The position numbers were made by a program, and so were the translations under genes. Below are positions 44,215-46,738 of a stretch of 64,000 bases of DNA, in pieces. How positions within the stretch are numbered: the stretch's first letter is position 1; each line of letters opens with the position of its first letter. The notes below the pieces were generated by a model that worked only from the letters and a program-made list of their open reading frames with translations, ran no database searches and was not told where the DNA came from. The stretch lies in assembly GCF_011299555.1 (NCBI RefSeq), contig NZ_CP049857.1, positions 186,001 to 250,000 on the forward strand, given 5' to 3'. Source of the stretch: Dysgonomonas sp. HDW5A (GTDB lineage Bacteria; Bacteroidota; Bacteroidia; Bacteroidales; Dysgonomonadaceae).

Positions 44215-44245
44215 TTTGTTTATATCTATAAAAGAATTATATTTG
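44215..44245 (+). promoter_or_regulatory. promoter of the AG-tract leader
   Basis: TTTG, exactly 19 bases, TATATTTG: the best Bacteroidetes promoter match in the window. Transcription should start near 44252, 24 bases before the leader ORF and about 105 bases before the AG tract. Confidence 0.8.
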
Positions 44246-44275
44246 TGACTTAAACAGAACTCTTTAGCTATAAAA

Positions 44276-44410
44276 ATGGCAAGCATATTAACAAATAATC
44301 ATTTCAACAACGAGCTTATATTTAACAATTTAAGCTTGGATTATTGTGCCAAAATATTAGAGAGAGAGAGAGAGAGAGAGAGAGAGAGAGAGAGAGAGAG
44401 AGAGAGCTAA
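44276..44410 (+). CDS. putative leader ORF ending in an Arg-Glu repeat
   Basis: 44 residues: MASILTNNHFNNEL then IFNNLSLDYCAKIL, then Glu(Arg-Glu)7-Ser encoded by the AG tract, with TAA directly after the repeat. It starts 24 bases after the predicted transcription start. With one unit fewer (or two more) the frame runs through the terminator below to a stop at 44695-44697, 13 bases before the next gene (139 residues). With one unit more it stops at a TAG two codons past the tract. No known family. A repeat-length switch is the inference; translation is unproven. Confidence 0.4.
   Translation: MASILTNNHFNNELIFNNLSLDYCAKILERERERERERERERES
44359..44406 (+). repeat. (AG)24 microsatellite
   Basis: 48 bases of uninterrupted AG, 24 units, on the coding strand, in the leader of the surface-protein gene at 44711. 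Same dinucleotide and same orientation relative to its gene as the tract before susC. Confidence 0.98.
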
Positions 44411-44442
44411 CTAGCAAACACGTTAGTTATAAAAATATTTTA

Positions 44443-44466
44443 GGCGGAACTTTCCGCCTTTTTTTT
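44443..44466 (+). terminator. intrinsic terminator inside the leader
   Basis: GGCGGAA-CT-TTCCGCC followed by eight T: a textbook terminator 36 bases after the AG tract and 245 bases before the gene it would serve. That makes it a candidate attenuator. A second stem, TTGCGT/ACGCAA, follows directly. Confidence 0.85.
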
Positions 44467-44710
44467 GGCTTGCGTTTTAAAGACGCAAAGACTTTCATTC
44501 CTAAATATTCCCCAATAAATACATCTATAGTTGTGTCGGTAAACACTTTCGTGTCGCCGATTTATTTTGTTGTTGTCATTTCAGATCAGCACGTAAAGGG
44601 TATTTATCTATGTCACAACTATGCTCGGCAGCAGCGTGTAGCGATTACATGCTGTTGCTATTTATCCTTACATTTTCAAGCTACTAACATTAATTAATTA
44701 TCATAAAACG
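44467..44710 (+). other. untranslated stretch after the leader terminator
   Basis: No separate gene recognised. One frame is open throughout and is continuous with the leader ORF at certain repeat lengths. No further TAnnTTTG promoter seen, so the gene at 44711 seems to depend on read-through. Confidence 0.5.
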
Positions 44711-46738
44711 ATGACAATGAAAAAGTTTTTTTTAACAGCAATGAGCATATGGACTATAGGCTCTATATATGCACAGATCGGTGTAAATACCGAAACGCCG
44801 GCAACGACACTTCATGTACTGCCCGGAAAAACGGACGGTACAACGGCTGAAGGGATTATCGCTCCTAACCTGAAAAGGTCGGAAGTGATTGCCAAGGACA
44901 GTAAATATGCAACTGCACAAACAGGGGCAATGGTATACGTTAGCGACTTGTCGGGAGTACTGACTACCAAAACAGCGAAAATCATAACAACCGGATACTA
45001 CTACTTCGATGGGGCTCTTTGGCAACCATTTACAAGTGGATCTGCTTCCGTTACCACAGCCAACAACGGTTTGACAATGAACGGCACAACTACCCAATTG
45101 GGGGGAGCTTTAATTAAGGCGACAAGTATTACAGGCACAGACCGATTAACTTTAGCTACGCCTACTACTATTTCGGGCATCCTCCAAATTACCAGTGGAT
45201 CGCCTGATACAGGAAAAGTACTGACCTCAGACATAAATGGCACTGCAACTTGGGTTACACCTGGCATAAGTACCGCCAACAACGGTATAACAATGAATGG
45301 ATCTGTTGCTCAATTGGGAGGAGCGTTAAATCAAAACACAACTATTACAGGAGCTACCCGGCTTACTATAGCTACACCAACTACTATTTCGGGAACAGCA
45401 CTTCTTATTACAAGCCCATTACAGATTGCTAGCGGATTACCTGGTGCAGGAAAAGTATTAATGTCCGATTTTACGGGTAATGCAACATGGGCTACAGCAA
45501 TAACTACCGCAAATAATGGTTTAACAATGAATGGAATAGCTGCCCAACTAGGAGGAGATTTAACCCAACCTACAAGCATTACAGGAACAAACCGATTAAC
45601 TTTAGCTACACCACTTCAAATAAGTAGCGGAACACCCGGTGCAGGCAAAGTATTAACATCGGATGCCAGCGGTAATGCTACATGGGCTGCTAACGCAACC
45701 CCTTGGTATAAGGTGGGTACTACAGTTCCATCGATATTGAACACTGACGATTCGTACCTGACAGCTAAAACAGTTATCGGAGGAAATACCATTGCTTCTA
45801 TCAATGGGGGAACAGCCAATGCACAACTTACAGTAACAGGAGGAGATGCTTCCATTAATGGTATAACTGTAGGAAGAGGGGCAGGCAATATATCAACAAA
45901 TATAGCAGTAGGAGCCAATAGTTTGGCAGCAAACACTTCAGGAACCAATAACACTGCTATTGGGTCAGGCGCCTTAAAAAGTAATCAAACTTCGTCTTTA
46001 AATACTGCGGTGGGGTACCAAGTTCTTCAAGCTAATACAACTGGCGGTGCTAATACTGCTATGGGATATTCAGCCGGAAGTGGCCTGACGACGGGAAATG
46101 GTAATACTGCTATTGGATATTCAGCCGGAGCTAATCTGACGACGGGAGCTTATAACGTGGCTATAGGTTACAACGTGAGTCTTCCGGATCCTGCAGCCAA
46201 TTTCCAAATGAATATAGGTAATGCTATATATGGGGTTACTAGTCTTACTGCTGGAGCGGGGCGTGTAAGTATTGGTAAAACAACTCCTGATGCAGGTGTA
46301 TTTTTAGATGTAGCCGGCTTAACACAAATAACAGGAGCCGGAAAATTCAAATATGTAGATAACAATCAGTTATCAGGACGGGTATTGTCTACTGATAATA
46401 ATGGTGTTGCTAAGTGGGCTGATCAGAATATGCTTACAGGGAGTTGGTTTTATTTGCCATCAATAAACTTAGATATGAGTACAACAACAAGTAAAACAAT
46501 AAATTTATTTACAGCCGGTGTACAACAGCTAATTCAAACACCAATAATAAGTAGTTTTGGTGGTGGCAATCTACCTACTCTTCCTACAACAGCAAGTGCA
46601 TACGAATATATGGTTGTAGGTAGTAGTGGACACATTACAATATCAAATATATCTTCATTAGGAGTTATGACTTATACACCTACCACCACCAACCCTCCTC
46701 CATTTGCTTTTGTGAATATCATTGTTCGGGTTAAATAA
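44711..46738 (+). CDS. secreted repeat protein of the S74 cluster, lacking the S74 domain
   Basis: 675 residues (the second Met, MKKFF, may be the start). Signal peptide (SIWTIGSIYAQ) and the shared module IGVNTETPATTLHV ... EGIIAPNLKRSEVIAKDSKYATAQTGAMVYV. Then three imperfect repeats of about 70 residues, each of the form TANNGLTMNG...AQLGGAL...ITG..RLTLATP...GAGKVLTSD..GNATW (about 117-325). PWYKVGT follows, then YadA-like NTAIG head repeats (about 385-495) and a unique C-terminal domain (GSWFYLPSINLDM ... VNIIVRVK). There is no Ser-Lys dyad. It stands behind its own promoter, AG tract and terminator. Confidence 0.8.
   Translation: MTMKKFFLTAMSIWTIGSIYAQIGVNTETPATTLHVLPGKTDGTTAEGIIAPNLKRSEVIAKDSKYATAQTGAMVYVSDLSGVLTTKTAKIITTGYYYFDGALWQPFTSGSASVTTANNGLTMNGTTTQLGGALIKATSITGTDRLTLATPTTISGILQITSGSPDTGKVLTSDINGTATWVTPGISTANNGITMNGSVAQLGGALNQNTTITGATRLTIATPTTISGTALLITSPLQIASGLPGAGKVLMSDFTGNATWATAITTANNGLTMNGIAAQLGGDLTQPTSITGTNRLTLATPLQISSGTPGAGKVLTSDASGNATWAANATPWYKVGTTVPSILNTDDSYLTAKTVIGGNTIASINGGTANAQLTVTGGDASINGITVGRGAGNISTNIAVGANSLAANTSGTNNTAIGSGALKSNQTSSLNTAVGYQVLQANTTGGANTAMGYSAGSGLTTGNGNTAIGYSAGANLTTGAYNVAIGYNVSLPDPAANFQMNIGNAIYGVTSLTAGAGRVSIGKTTPDAGVFLDVAGLTQITGAGKFKYVDNNQLSGRVLSTDNNGVAKWADQNMLTGSWFYLPSINLDMSTTTSKTINLFTAGVQQLIQTPIISSFGGGNLPTLPTTASAYEYMVVGSSGHITISNISSLGVMTYTPTTTNPPPFAFVNIIVRVK
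46051..46152 (+). repeat. 51-base tandem repeat within the surface-protein gene
   Basis: Two near-identical 51-base units encoding ANTAMGYSAGSGLTTGNG and NTAIGYSAGANLTTGA-like head repeats; in frame, so copy-number change would lengthen the fibre without breaking it. Confidence 0.75.

Follow-up and report, generated by a model that had tools for sequence, protein, structure and literature searches.

In coding contingency genes with simple sequence repeats (SSRs), such as the CT/AG repeats of Helicobacter pylori or opa of Neisseria, slippage-prone repeats lie in the regulated gene and shift its reading frame. In trp-type attenuation, which PMC3894217 describes as well, the position of the ribosome on a leader open reading frame (ORF) decides the fate of a downstream terminator. 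Here we describe a leader with an (AG)24 tract, located upstream of a gene for a secreted protein in a 64,000-nucleotide stretch of the Dysgonomonas sp. HDW5A genome (hereafter the window; positions 186001–250000 of a one-contig genome of 4,298,355 bases, labelled G000), and its relatives in this and other genomes. The closest described loci are pil1 and pil3 of Streptococcus gallolyticus, for which attenuation-like phase variation was shown experimentally; the stop codon of the low-expression state is located 28–49 nt before the terminator (Danne et al. 2014, PMC3894217). In this system, 22 GCAGA repeats in pil1 place the stop 39–49 nt before the hairpin (low expression), and 21 or 23 repeats place it at or in the hairpin (high expression). 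In Bacteroides, SusC/SusD and capsules are subject to phase variation by invertible promoters, as stated in a 2025 phase-variation review (PMC11868660).

The window leader has the same layout as pil1 and pil3. A repeat whose unit is not a multiple of three lies in a leader ORF behind a promoter (here recognized by motif) and before a terminator and a surface operon. As in pil1, the frame after the repeat would decide whether the ribosome reaches the terminator, and the gap left between an early stop and terminator 1 in the window is 31 or 27 nt. The differences from the pil1 system concern the unit (AG vs GCAGA), the number of loci (17 here vs two reported there), the frames (one of three is long here, whereas 21 and 23 repeats are both high there), the hairpins (two terminators and a long conserved hairpin here, one terminator described there), the phylum, and the evidence, the switch being shown experimentally there and deduced from sequence here. 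The best reading by analogy is that the leader works like pil1; common descent is not claimed. Like the invertible promoters, the leaders would make surface components of Bacteroidales phase-variable, by repeat slippage instead of site-specific inversion. Unlike in coding SSR loci, the repeat lies in a separate leader ORF, whose long frame joins the gene frame in 20 of 78 leaders and not in the window copy. As in trp attenuation, ribosome position on the leader ORF would decide the terminator, with the difference that the variable here is the length of the DNA.

Among open-licence publications judged by title and abstract (other licences and preprints lay outside the search), only the S. gallolyticus paper combines these features, and no open-licence full text was found with both 'Dysgonomonas' and 'phase variation'. 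The available part of the review mentions Bacteroides inversion, and the terms 'leader peptide' and 'terminator' occur in it 0 times. As far as these searches reach, the leaders would be a phylogenetically distant, multi-copy family of a mechanism so far shown in one Streptococcus. With such a family, ON surface genes become predictable from genome sequence, a further route of surface variation is added for gut and insect-associated Bacteroidales, and transcription–translation coupling in Bacteroidota becomes testable, since the proposed switch requires ribosomes that keep pace with RNA polymerase. Moreover, comparison alone reveals that the reading frame is under selection in a leader which, apart from this, is no protein gene.

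Leader parts and proposed switch

All parts of the leader are located on the + strand. The promoter (44215–44245) consists of TTTG (44215–44218), a 19-base spacer and TATATTTG (44238–44245), a sequence motif of the TTTG/TAnnTTTG type, which we take to be the Bacteroidota-type promoter. The leader ORF in the frame as sequenced (44276–44410) has 44 codons, namely 28 codons followed by (RE)n, and ends with E(RE)7S and TAA at 44408–44410. Within it the (AG)24 tract, the presumed length-variable part, occupies exactly positions 44359–44406 and reads as Arg-Glu in all frames. A small hairpin directly 3' of the tract (44408–44429), whose sequence is missing from some copies of the leader, holds the staggered stops TAA (44408–44410) and TAG (44412–44414) that close two of the three frames. 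Terminator 1 (44442–44466; hairpin 44442–44459) has the stem AGGCGGAA/TTCCGCCT of 7 pairs, a loop of 4 and eight T, its GGCGGAA starting 36 bases past the tract. It is followed by a long conserved hairpin (44526–44623), seen both by folding and in the consensus fold, and by terminator 2 (44627–44659), which has 14–15 pairs, a near-invariant TGTAGYGAYTACA core in the 17 copies of this genome and an imperfect T run in the window copy.

When AG units are added in silico, the stop moves from +1 at n to +5 at n+1 and to +288 (44695–44697) at n+2, equivalent to n = 23 or 26. The ORF expected at these lengths (44276–44697) is open through both terminators and stops 13 bases before the gene. An earlier reading made from the letters of the window (the sequence-only reading) had given the promoter, the 44-codon ORF, the GGCGGAA/TTCCGCC terminator with eight T, the stop positions by n and the gene start at 44711, and all of them hold. 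It had described a single terminator, overlooking the long hairpin and terminator 2, which is the more conserved of the two and lies just before the gene.

A consensus scan yielded two terminator-like hairpins on the + strand, at 44442–44459 and 44627–44659 (three sites on both strands; 0.4 expected), and the fold of 44407–44672 is 4.75 standard deviations below dinucleotide shuffles. Rfam gave three matches in 44000–45000, none reaching the gathering score, and the sole match to the leader past the tract scored 20.1 bits with 55 needed. Neither a competing antiterminator hairpin nor a sensed amino acid was seen in the folds, with no dedicated search made for them.

It is highly probable, in our judgement, that the leader is a phase-variable, translation-coupled transcription attenuator acting by antitermination. 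This reading draws on the parts and the conserved geometry of their frames, on covarying hairpins, on signs that the frame is selected and on length differences between orthologs, all obtained by comparing sequences. In the order of events that we infer, RNA synthesis would begin at the leader promoter, and a ribosome would initiate at the leader ATG and read 28 codons, followed by (Arg-Glu)n from the AG tract. Through slipped-strand mispairing AG units would be gained or lost, so that the ribosome would leave the tract in one of three frames. In two of them it would meet a stop within 35 nt and be released, the downstream hairpins would fold and RNA polymerase would terminate (OFF). In the third, having no stop before the end of terminator 2, it would traverse both stems during their synthesis and block their folding, and the polymerase would proceed into the operon of the surface protein (ON). 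With n = 24, the window copy would then be OFF.

Conservation and use of the reading frame

In the 4.30-Mb genome there are 19 tracts of at least seven AG units and none in the other register. The same leader 5' half is carried by 18 of the 19, and a complete homologous leader by 17, the window copy and 16 elsewhere; one of these (2495730) has a short, interrupted tract of about 8 units. The eighteenth tract, before a susC gene at 3071765, has the leader 5' half only, and the nineteenth is the window's own susC tract (5218–5275). Hence the window tract, which had been taken for a 'second, independently placed' one, is instead one copy among 17 homologous leaders. A covariance model of the part past the tract finds all 17 leaders and three weaker tract-less elements at E < 1e-5; six further matches (E from 0.006 to 0.4) overlap the 3' end of known copies in the opposite orientation. 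Pairwise identity in this part is 48–84%, and thus the copies are divergent enough for conservation to be tested. The genome's only site of (AC)8 or longer (G000:C1:2931802–2931831) is located 10 kb past two AG leaders.

The longest frame was defined as ON. In 16 of the 17 copies it has no stop from the tract to the end of terminator 2, the sole exception being a 1-base deletion in a terminator arm, while the other frames contain 2–11 stops each. In a neutral simulation on a FastTree tree, started from open sequences, without indels and with the first 46 columns excluded, on average 0.90 of 17 copies stayed open, with a maximum of 6 in 960 runs.

For comparison between species, 147 tracts were reduced to 140 by removing seven lacking an ORF with ATG. 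From these we scored 82 leaders of five Dysgonomonas genomes (G000, G001, G003, G004 and G005) that were not cut off and had a TTGT[CT]GTT motif more than 100 nt downstream. The leaders of the relatives are those among the matches listed, with G005 mostly left out, and two real paralogs, both OFF, were lost when duplicates were removed on the basis of 40+40 flanking bases. Sixteen leaders of the five genomes are outside this set: two ordinary OFF leaders excluded by the motif rule (G001 41413 and 202531), an OFF leader lacking the motif (G004 839780), four at contig ends (G003 C2 93, apparently ON, two OFF and one undecidable), four leaders with the peptide of the window copy (type I) lacking the downstream part (two in the longest frame, two not), and five others including the window susC leader.

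The ON frame crosses terminator 2 in 79 of the 82 leaders from the five species. In dinucleotide shuffles, 1.5–1.6 leaders of 82 are open when the frame is given, and 4.84 when the best of three is taken; the second figure is the fairer expectation, ON being by definition the longest frame. In 80 of 82 leaders, both other frames meet a stop no more than 35 nt past the tract. In an alignment inspected by eye, a T run in the middle of the leader differs by single T's between copies, which shifts the downstream frame, and the region is still open; it seems therefore that openness is kept rather than a peptide. The same T-rich run, at about 44560–44575 in the window, is a possible second slippage site.

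Of the 82 leaders, a single one (G001 C22 37354, n = 13) is at present in the ON frame, while one third is expected (P = 1.5e-13). Five later leaders include four OFF and one ON (n = 8), giving 2 of 87 in total (P = 4.7e-13). Since ON is far rarer than one third, the frame matters, and the comparison indicates that it is under present selection. The bias may come from expression cost in culture or from control keeping few loci ON. Other later leaders are one with n = 4.5 whose frame is OFF, one interrupted by a stop 5' of the tract, and one with n = 14.5, which owes its long frame to a new ATG adjacent to the tract. L355 and L358 are leaders broken by a point change or deletion adjoining the tract, and a new ATG at the tract side opens the ON frame in L355.

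The two OFF frames are used in ratios of 9:8 in G000, 10:14 in G003 and 8:12 in G004, but 12:3 in G001 and 0:5 in G005. Judged by G000, they appear equivalent, which would leave two functional states, one ON frame and two OFF. The sequence-only reading had proposed a shared three-state attenuation switch. Its repeat-length attenuation is supported by the 79 open leaders, by covariation and by frame usage; the three states are not. Among 34 reciprocal-best pairs of genes between species, 33 have tracts of different length, although the lengths for the relatives, being taken from multi-contig assemblies, may be inexact.

We considered that the tract frame might fuse the leader to the gene, as in a coding contingency locus, or deliver ribosomes to it by translational coupling. 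Among 78 leaders, 35 ON ORFs end before the gene start, 23 overlap the gene in another frame and 20 join it in frame. These 20 are what fusion predicts, and in G000 and G001, where 24 of the 26 ON ORFs ending before the gene start do so within 50 nt of it, coupling may help. However, a few ON ORFs stop more than 300 nt away, so the relation to the gene start is not conserved, and crossing of the terminators is the common principle rather than fusion or coupling. Furthermore, the genes have their own start and signal peptide, and the terminators would be left without a role. We regard fusion or coupling as the basic mode of action as quite unlikely, and in-frame fusion as the shared principle was rejected.

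The leader ORF itself is conserved. Its ATG is located at −83 relative to the tract in 77 of 82 leaders, and in these 77 the mean number of stops per copy is 0 in the leader frame and 3.47 and 3.48 in the other two. TAnnTTyG is found within 110 bases 5' of the ATG in 76 of the 77, most commonly starting 37–38 bases before it, and 52 of the 77 have TTG upstream at about the correct spacing. The ratio of nonsynonymous to synonymous substitution rates (dN/dS) in the leader is about 0.4–0.6. This ratio, together with the long frame being current in 1 of 82 leaders, would fit a 44-codon peptide with an (Arg-Glu)n tail that is itself the functional product and whose extension is selected against, hence the OFF bias. 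Such a peptide would leave unexplained the open but unused third frame, the conserved hairpins and the constant place before surface genes, and we consider it very improbable. Even less credible is a frame-independent effect of the AG/CT tract as DNA, through triplex formation or spacing. Long mirror-repeat tracts can adopt unusual DNA structures, but conservation and bias depend on the frame, and the tract lies more than 110 bases 3' of the promoter, inside the leader ORF.

Hairpin covariation and proposed termination

The RNAalifold consensus of the 17 copies contains 46 pairs, 21 of them with double compensatory change. Shuffle controls gave 8.0 ± 2.1 such pairs, none of 500 reaching 21, and controls with slid partners gave 3–9. 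In terminator 1 both sides change in 4 of 7 pairs, the long hairpin has compensatory change in 12 of 24 pairs, and terminator 2 is paired in 99.2% of cells, with double changes in 5 of 15 pairs. Terminator 2 was recovered in the consensus fold of each of the four other species. By a simple rule, which may select other T runs, terminator 1 is strong in G000 and in most copies of G001, G004 and G005. The core of terminator 2 in the window and the 16 other copies is almost invariant, while the lower stem varies; the core is possibly a contact site for protein or RNA.

The closest rival keeps the same switch and attributes the OFF state to polarity, with Rho acting on the RNA that the early stop leaves untranslated and the hairpins serving, for example, RNA stability. 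It predicts the open ON frame equally well, as well as the same genetics. After the early stop in the window about 300 nt of untranslated RNA precede the gene, and terminator 1 is weak in one species, both of which suit Rho. Polarity would not account for the two sites with a hairpin and a T run that the window copy has on its coding strand, given 0.4 expected for the three found on both strands, or for the strong covariation of the stems. We judge it unlikely, and prefer termination at the hairpins.

Elements lacking the tract bear on the attenuation reading as a whole. We collected 18 elements without an (AG)8 tract, 3 in this genome and 15 from relatives, elements at contig ends being left out. 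In four of them (L342, L350, L354 and L332) an ORF starting with ATG, 82–96 codons long, reaches the end of terminator 2 (0.12 expected for ORFs of at least 60 codons). L342 keeps the promoter and remains of the leader and has lost the tract, and L350 and L354 look orthologous between two species. By their sequences, these four are apparently switches fixed ON. Some of the 14 others appear by eye to lie between genes of one operon. In L331, L344, L347 and L348 the long hairpin and terminator 2, all or in part, occur in apparently intergenic position without a leader ORF, and the 3' half of the leader may be a unit of its own.

Several observations weigh against translation-coupled attenuation as proposed here. 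None of the 17 leaders in this genome is ON, so it provides no natural ON example. The ON frame is broken before terminator 2 in 3 of the 82 leaders, and 2 of the 82 have a second long frame. The excluded leaders include one at a contig end that looks ON (G003 C2 93) and two G001 type I leaders before SusC-like genes, which lack the downstream hairpin part and are in the longest frame. The counts of leaders are not fully independent, as copies share ancestry. Terminator 1 is weak in the G003 copies and was not found by the rule in 2 of the 17 copies of this genome, and the T run of terminator 2 in the window is poor (ATTTATCC). Fourteen of the 18 tract-less elements have no long ORF through terminator 2. 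Finally, variation at codon position 3 of the leader (0.33) hardly exceeds that at positions 1 and 2 (0.30 and 0.31), so its conservation may partly be at the level of RNA or DNA.

Regulated genes, other leaders and distribution

The first gene after the window leader (44711–46738, +) encodes a 675-aa secreted protein with an ...AQIGVNTETP N-terminus past the signal peptide and no match in Pfam or NCBIfam. The next gene (46818–48371, +), possibly co-transcribed with it, encodes a 517-aa secreted protein with a PKD domain. The three window genes directly 5' of the leader are of the same broad kind, with the S74 chaperone domain in all three and a YadA-head in two (one just under the cut-off).

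A gene for a secreted protein follows 78 of 81 leaders examined, and in 77 of these the protein has a Q(V/I)GINT-like start after the signal peptide; downstream genes of this kind are commonly grouped, several together. The tracts are thus not scattered regardless of surface genes and orientation, and the suggestion that the layout before surface genes is selected gains strong support from the comparison. A surface location of the proteins is itself only indicated by their sequences. Seven further first-gene proteins compared with Pfam gave no match in five cases, a BclA_C match below the cut-off in one and DUF7738 in one. The predicted structure of a related first-gene protein, built from a 20-row alignment, has a mean predicted local distance difference test (pLDDT) score of 68 and a predicted template modelling score (pTM) of 0.46. 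The Foldseek matches of this model, with E values of about 2e-4 to 5e-3 and a query TM of about 0.2–0.3, are a mixture of jelly rolls (pgp3, TNF-like, C1q-like) and viral capsid proteins, which is only a hint that these proteins are jelly-roll-headed.

A wider picture, which we put forward tentatively and hold to be somewhat less probable than its negation, is that of a dispersed homologous cassette, made up of promoter, leader ORF, AG tract, structured RNA and double terminator, that has spread in Dysgonomonas before the genes of an entire family of secreted, possibly jelly-roll-headed proteins. It would provide some 17 or more independent antitermination switches per genome, nearly all OFF, with few coat proteins shown, and the long hairpin with terminator 2, found also without a tract, would be a new RNA element and a second control layer.

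The window susC leader has a different frame layout. Its tract, (CT)29 or (AG)29 on the minus strand (5218–5275, −), lies in a leader with a type II peptide, and its stop offsets are 97, 77 and 3, so that one frame stops at once and two after 77–97 nt. Type II leaders, whose peptides end like ENLxVxxIxxK/E(RE)n, are ON and OFF in a mixed manner in relatives, and these SusC-type leaders are mostly not clean switches. The sequence-only reading had called the peptides of the two window leaders unrelated. The type I peptide, however, is also found in the susC leader at G000:C1:3071765, which links the two leader types. This leader, which stands before a susC-type gene and lacks the downstream hairpin part, is a natural hybrid.

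Tracts of at least 8 units were found in 19 of 81 genomes, this one included: all 5 other genomes of the genus (3–43 each), six of a sister genus (2–18 each), four more of the family (1–4) and three of other families (1, 1 and 16). Within the genus, the downstream model matches the 5 genomes of at least 90% completeness, this one included, and not the sixth (62% complete). A longer exact pattern with AT flanks occurs in 2 of 393 genomes of the order; both pattern and draw are narrower than for the 19 of 81, so this is no measure of prevalence. We rejected the assumption that all AG tracts of the relatives are clean switches: among 38 scored tracts with neither the type I peptide nor the downstream motif, 11 are clean and 18 are in the longest frame.

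In termite-gut metagenome-assembled genomes (MAGs) labelled Prevotella there are leader ORFs that have the tract at about −80 and end like ENLxVSxILLE(RE)n. Paludibacter sp. 221 has other (RE)n leaders, as do MAGs of Tannerella and Dysgonamonadaceae. In 2 of 4 Paludibacter examples a strong hairpin at +300 to +334 is followed by the ON stop at +346 to +380. Two leaders of Paludibacter sp. 221 (L222 and L263) have other peptides and other downstream genes (HADTWYVKQGG after the signal peptide) with the same order of tract, frame and strong terminator, and may be remote homologs or convergent.

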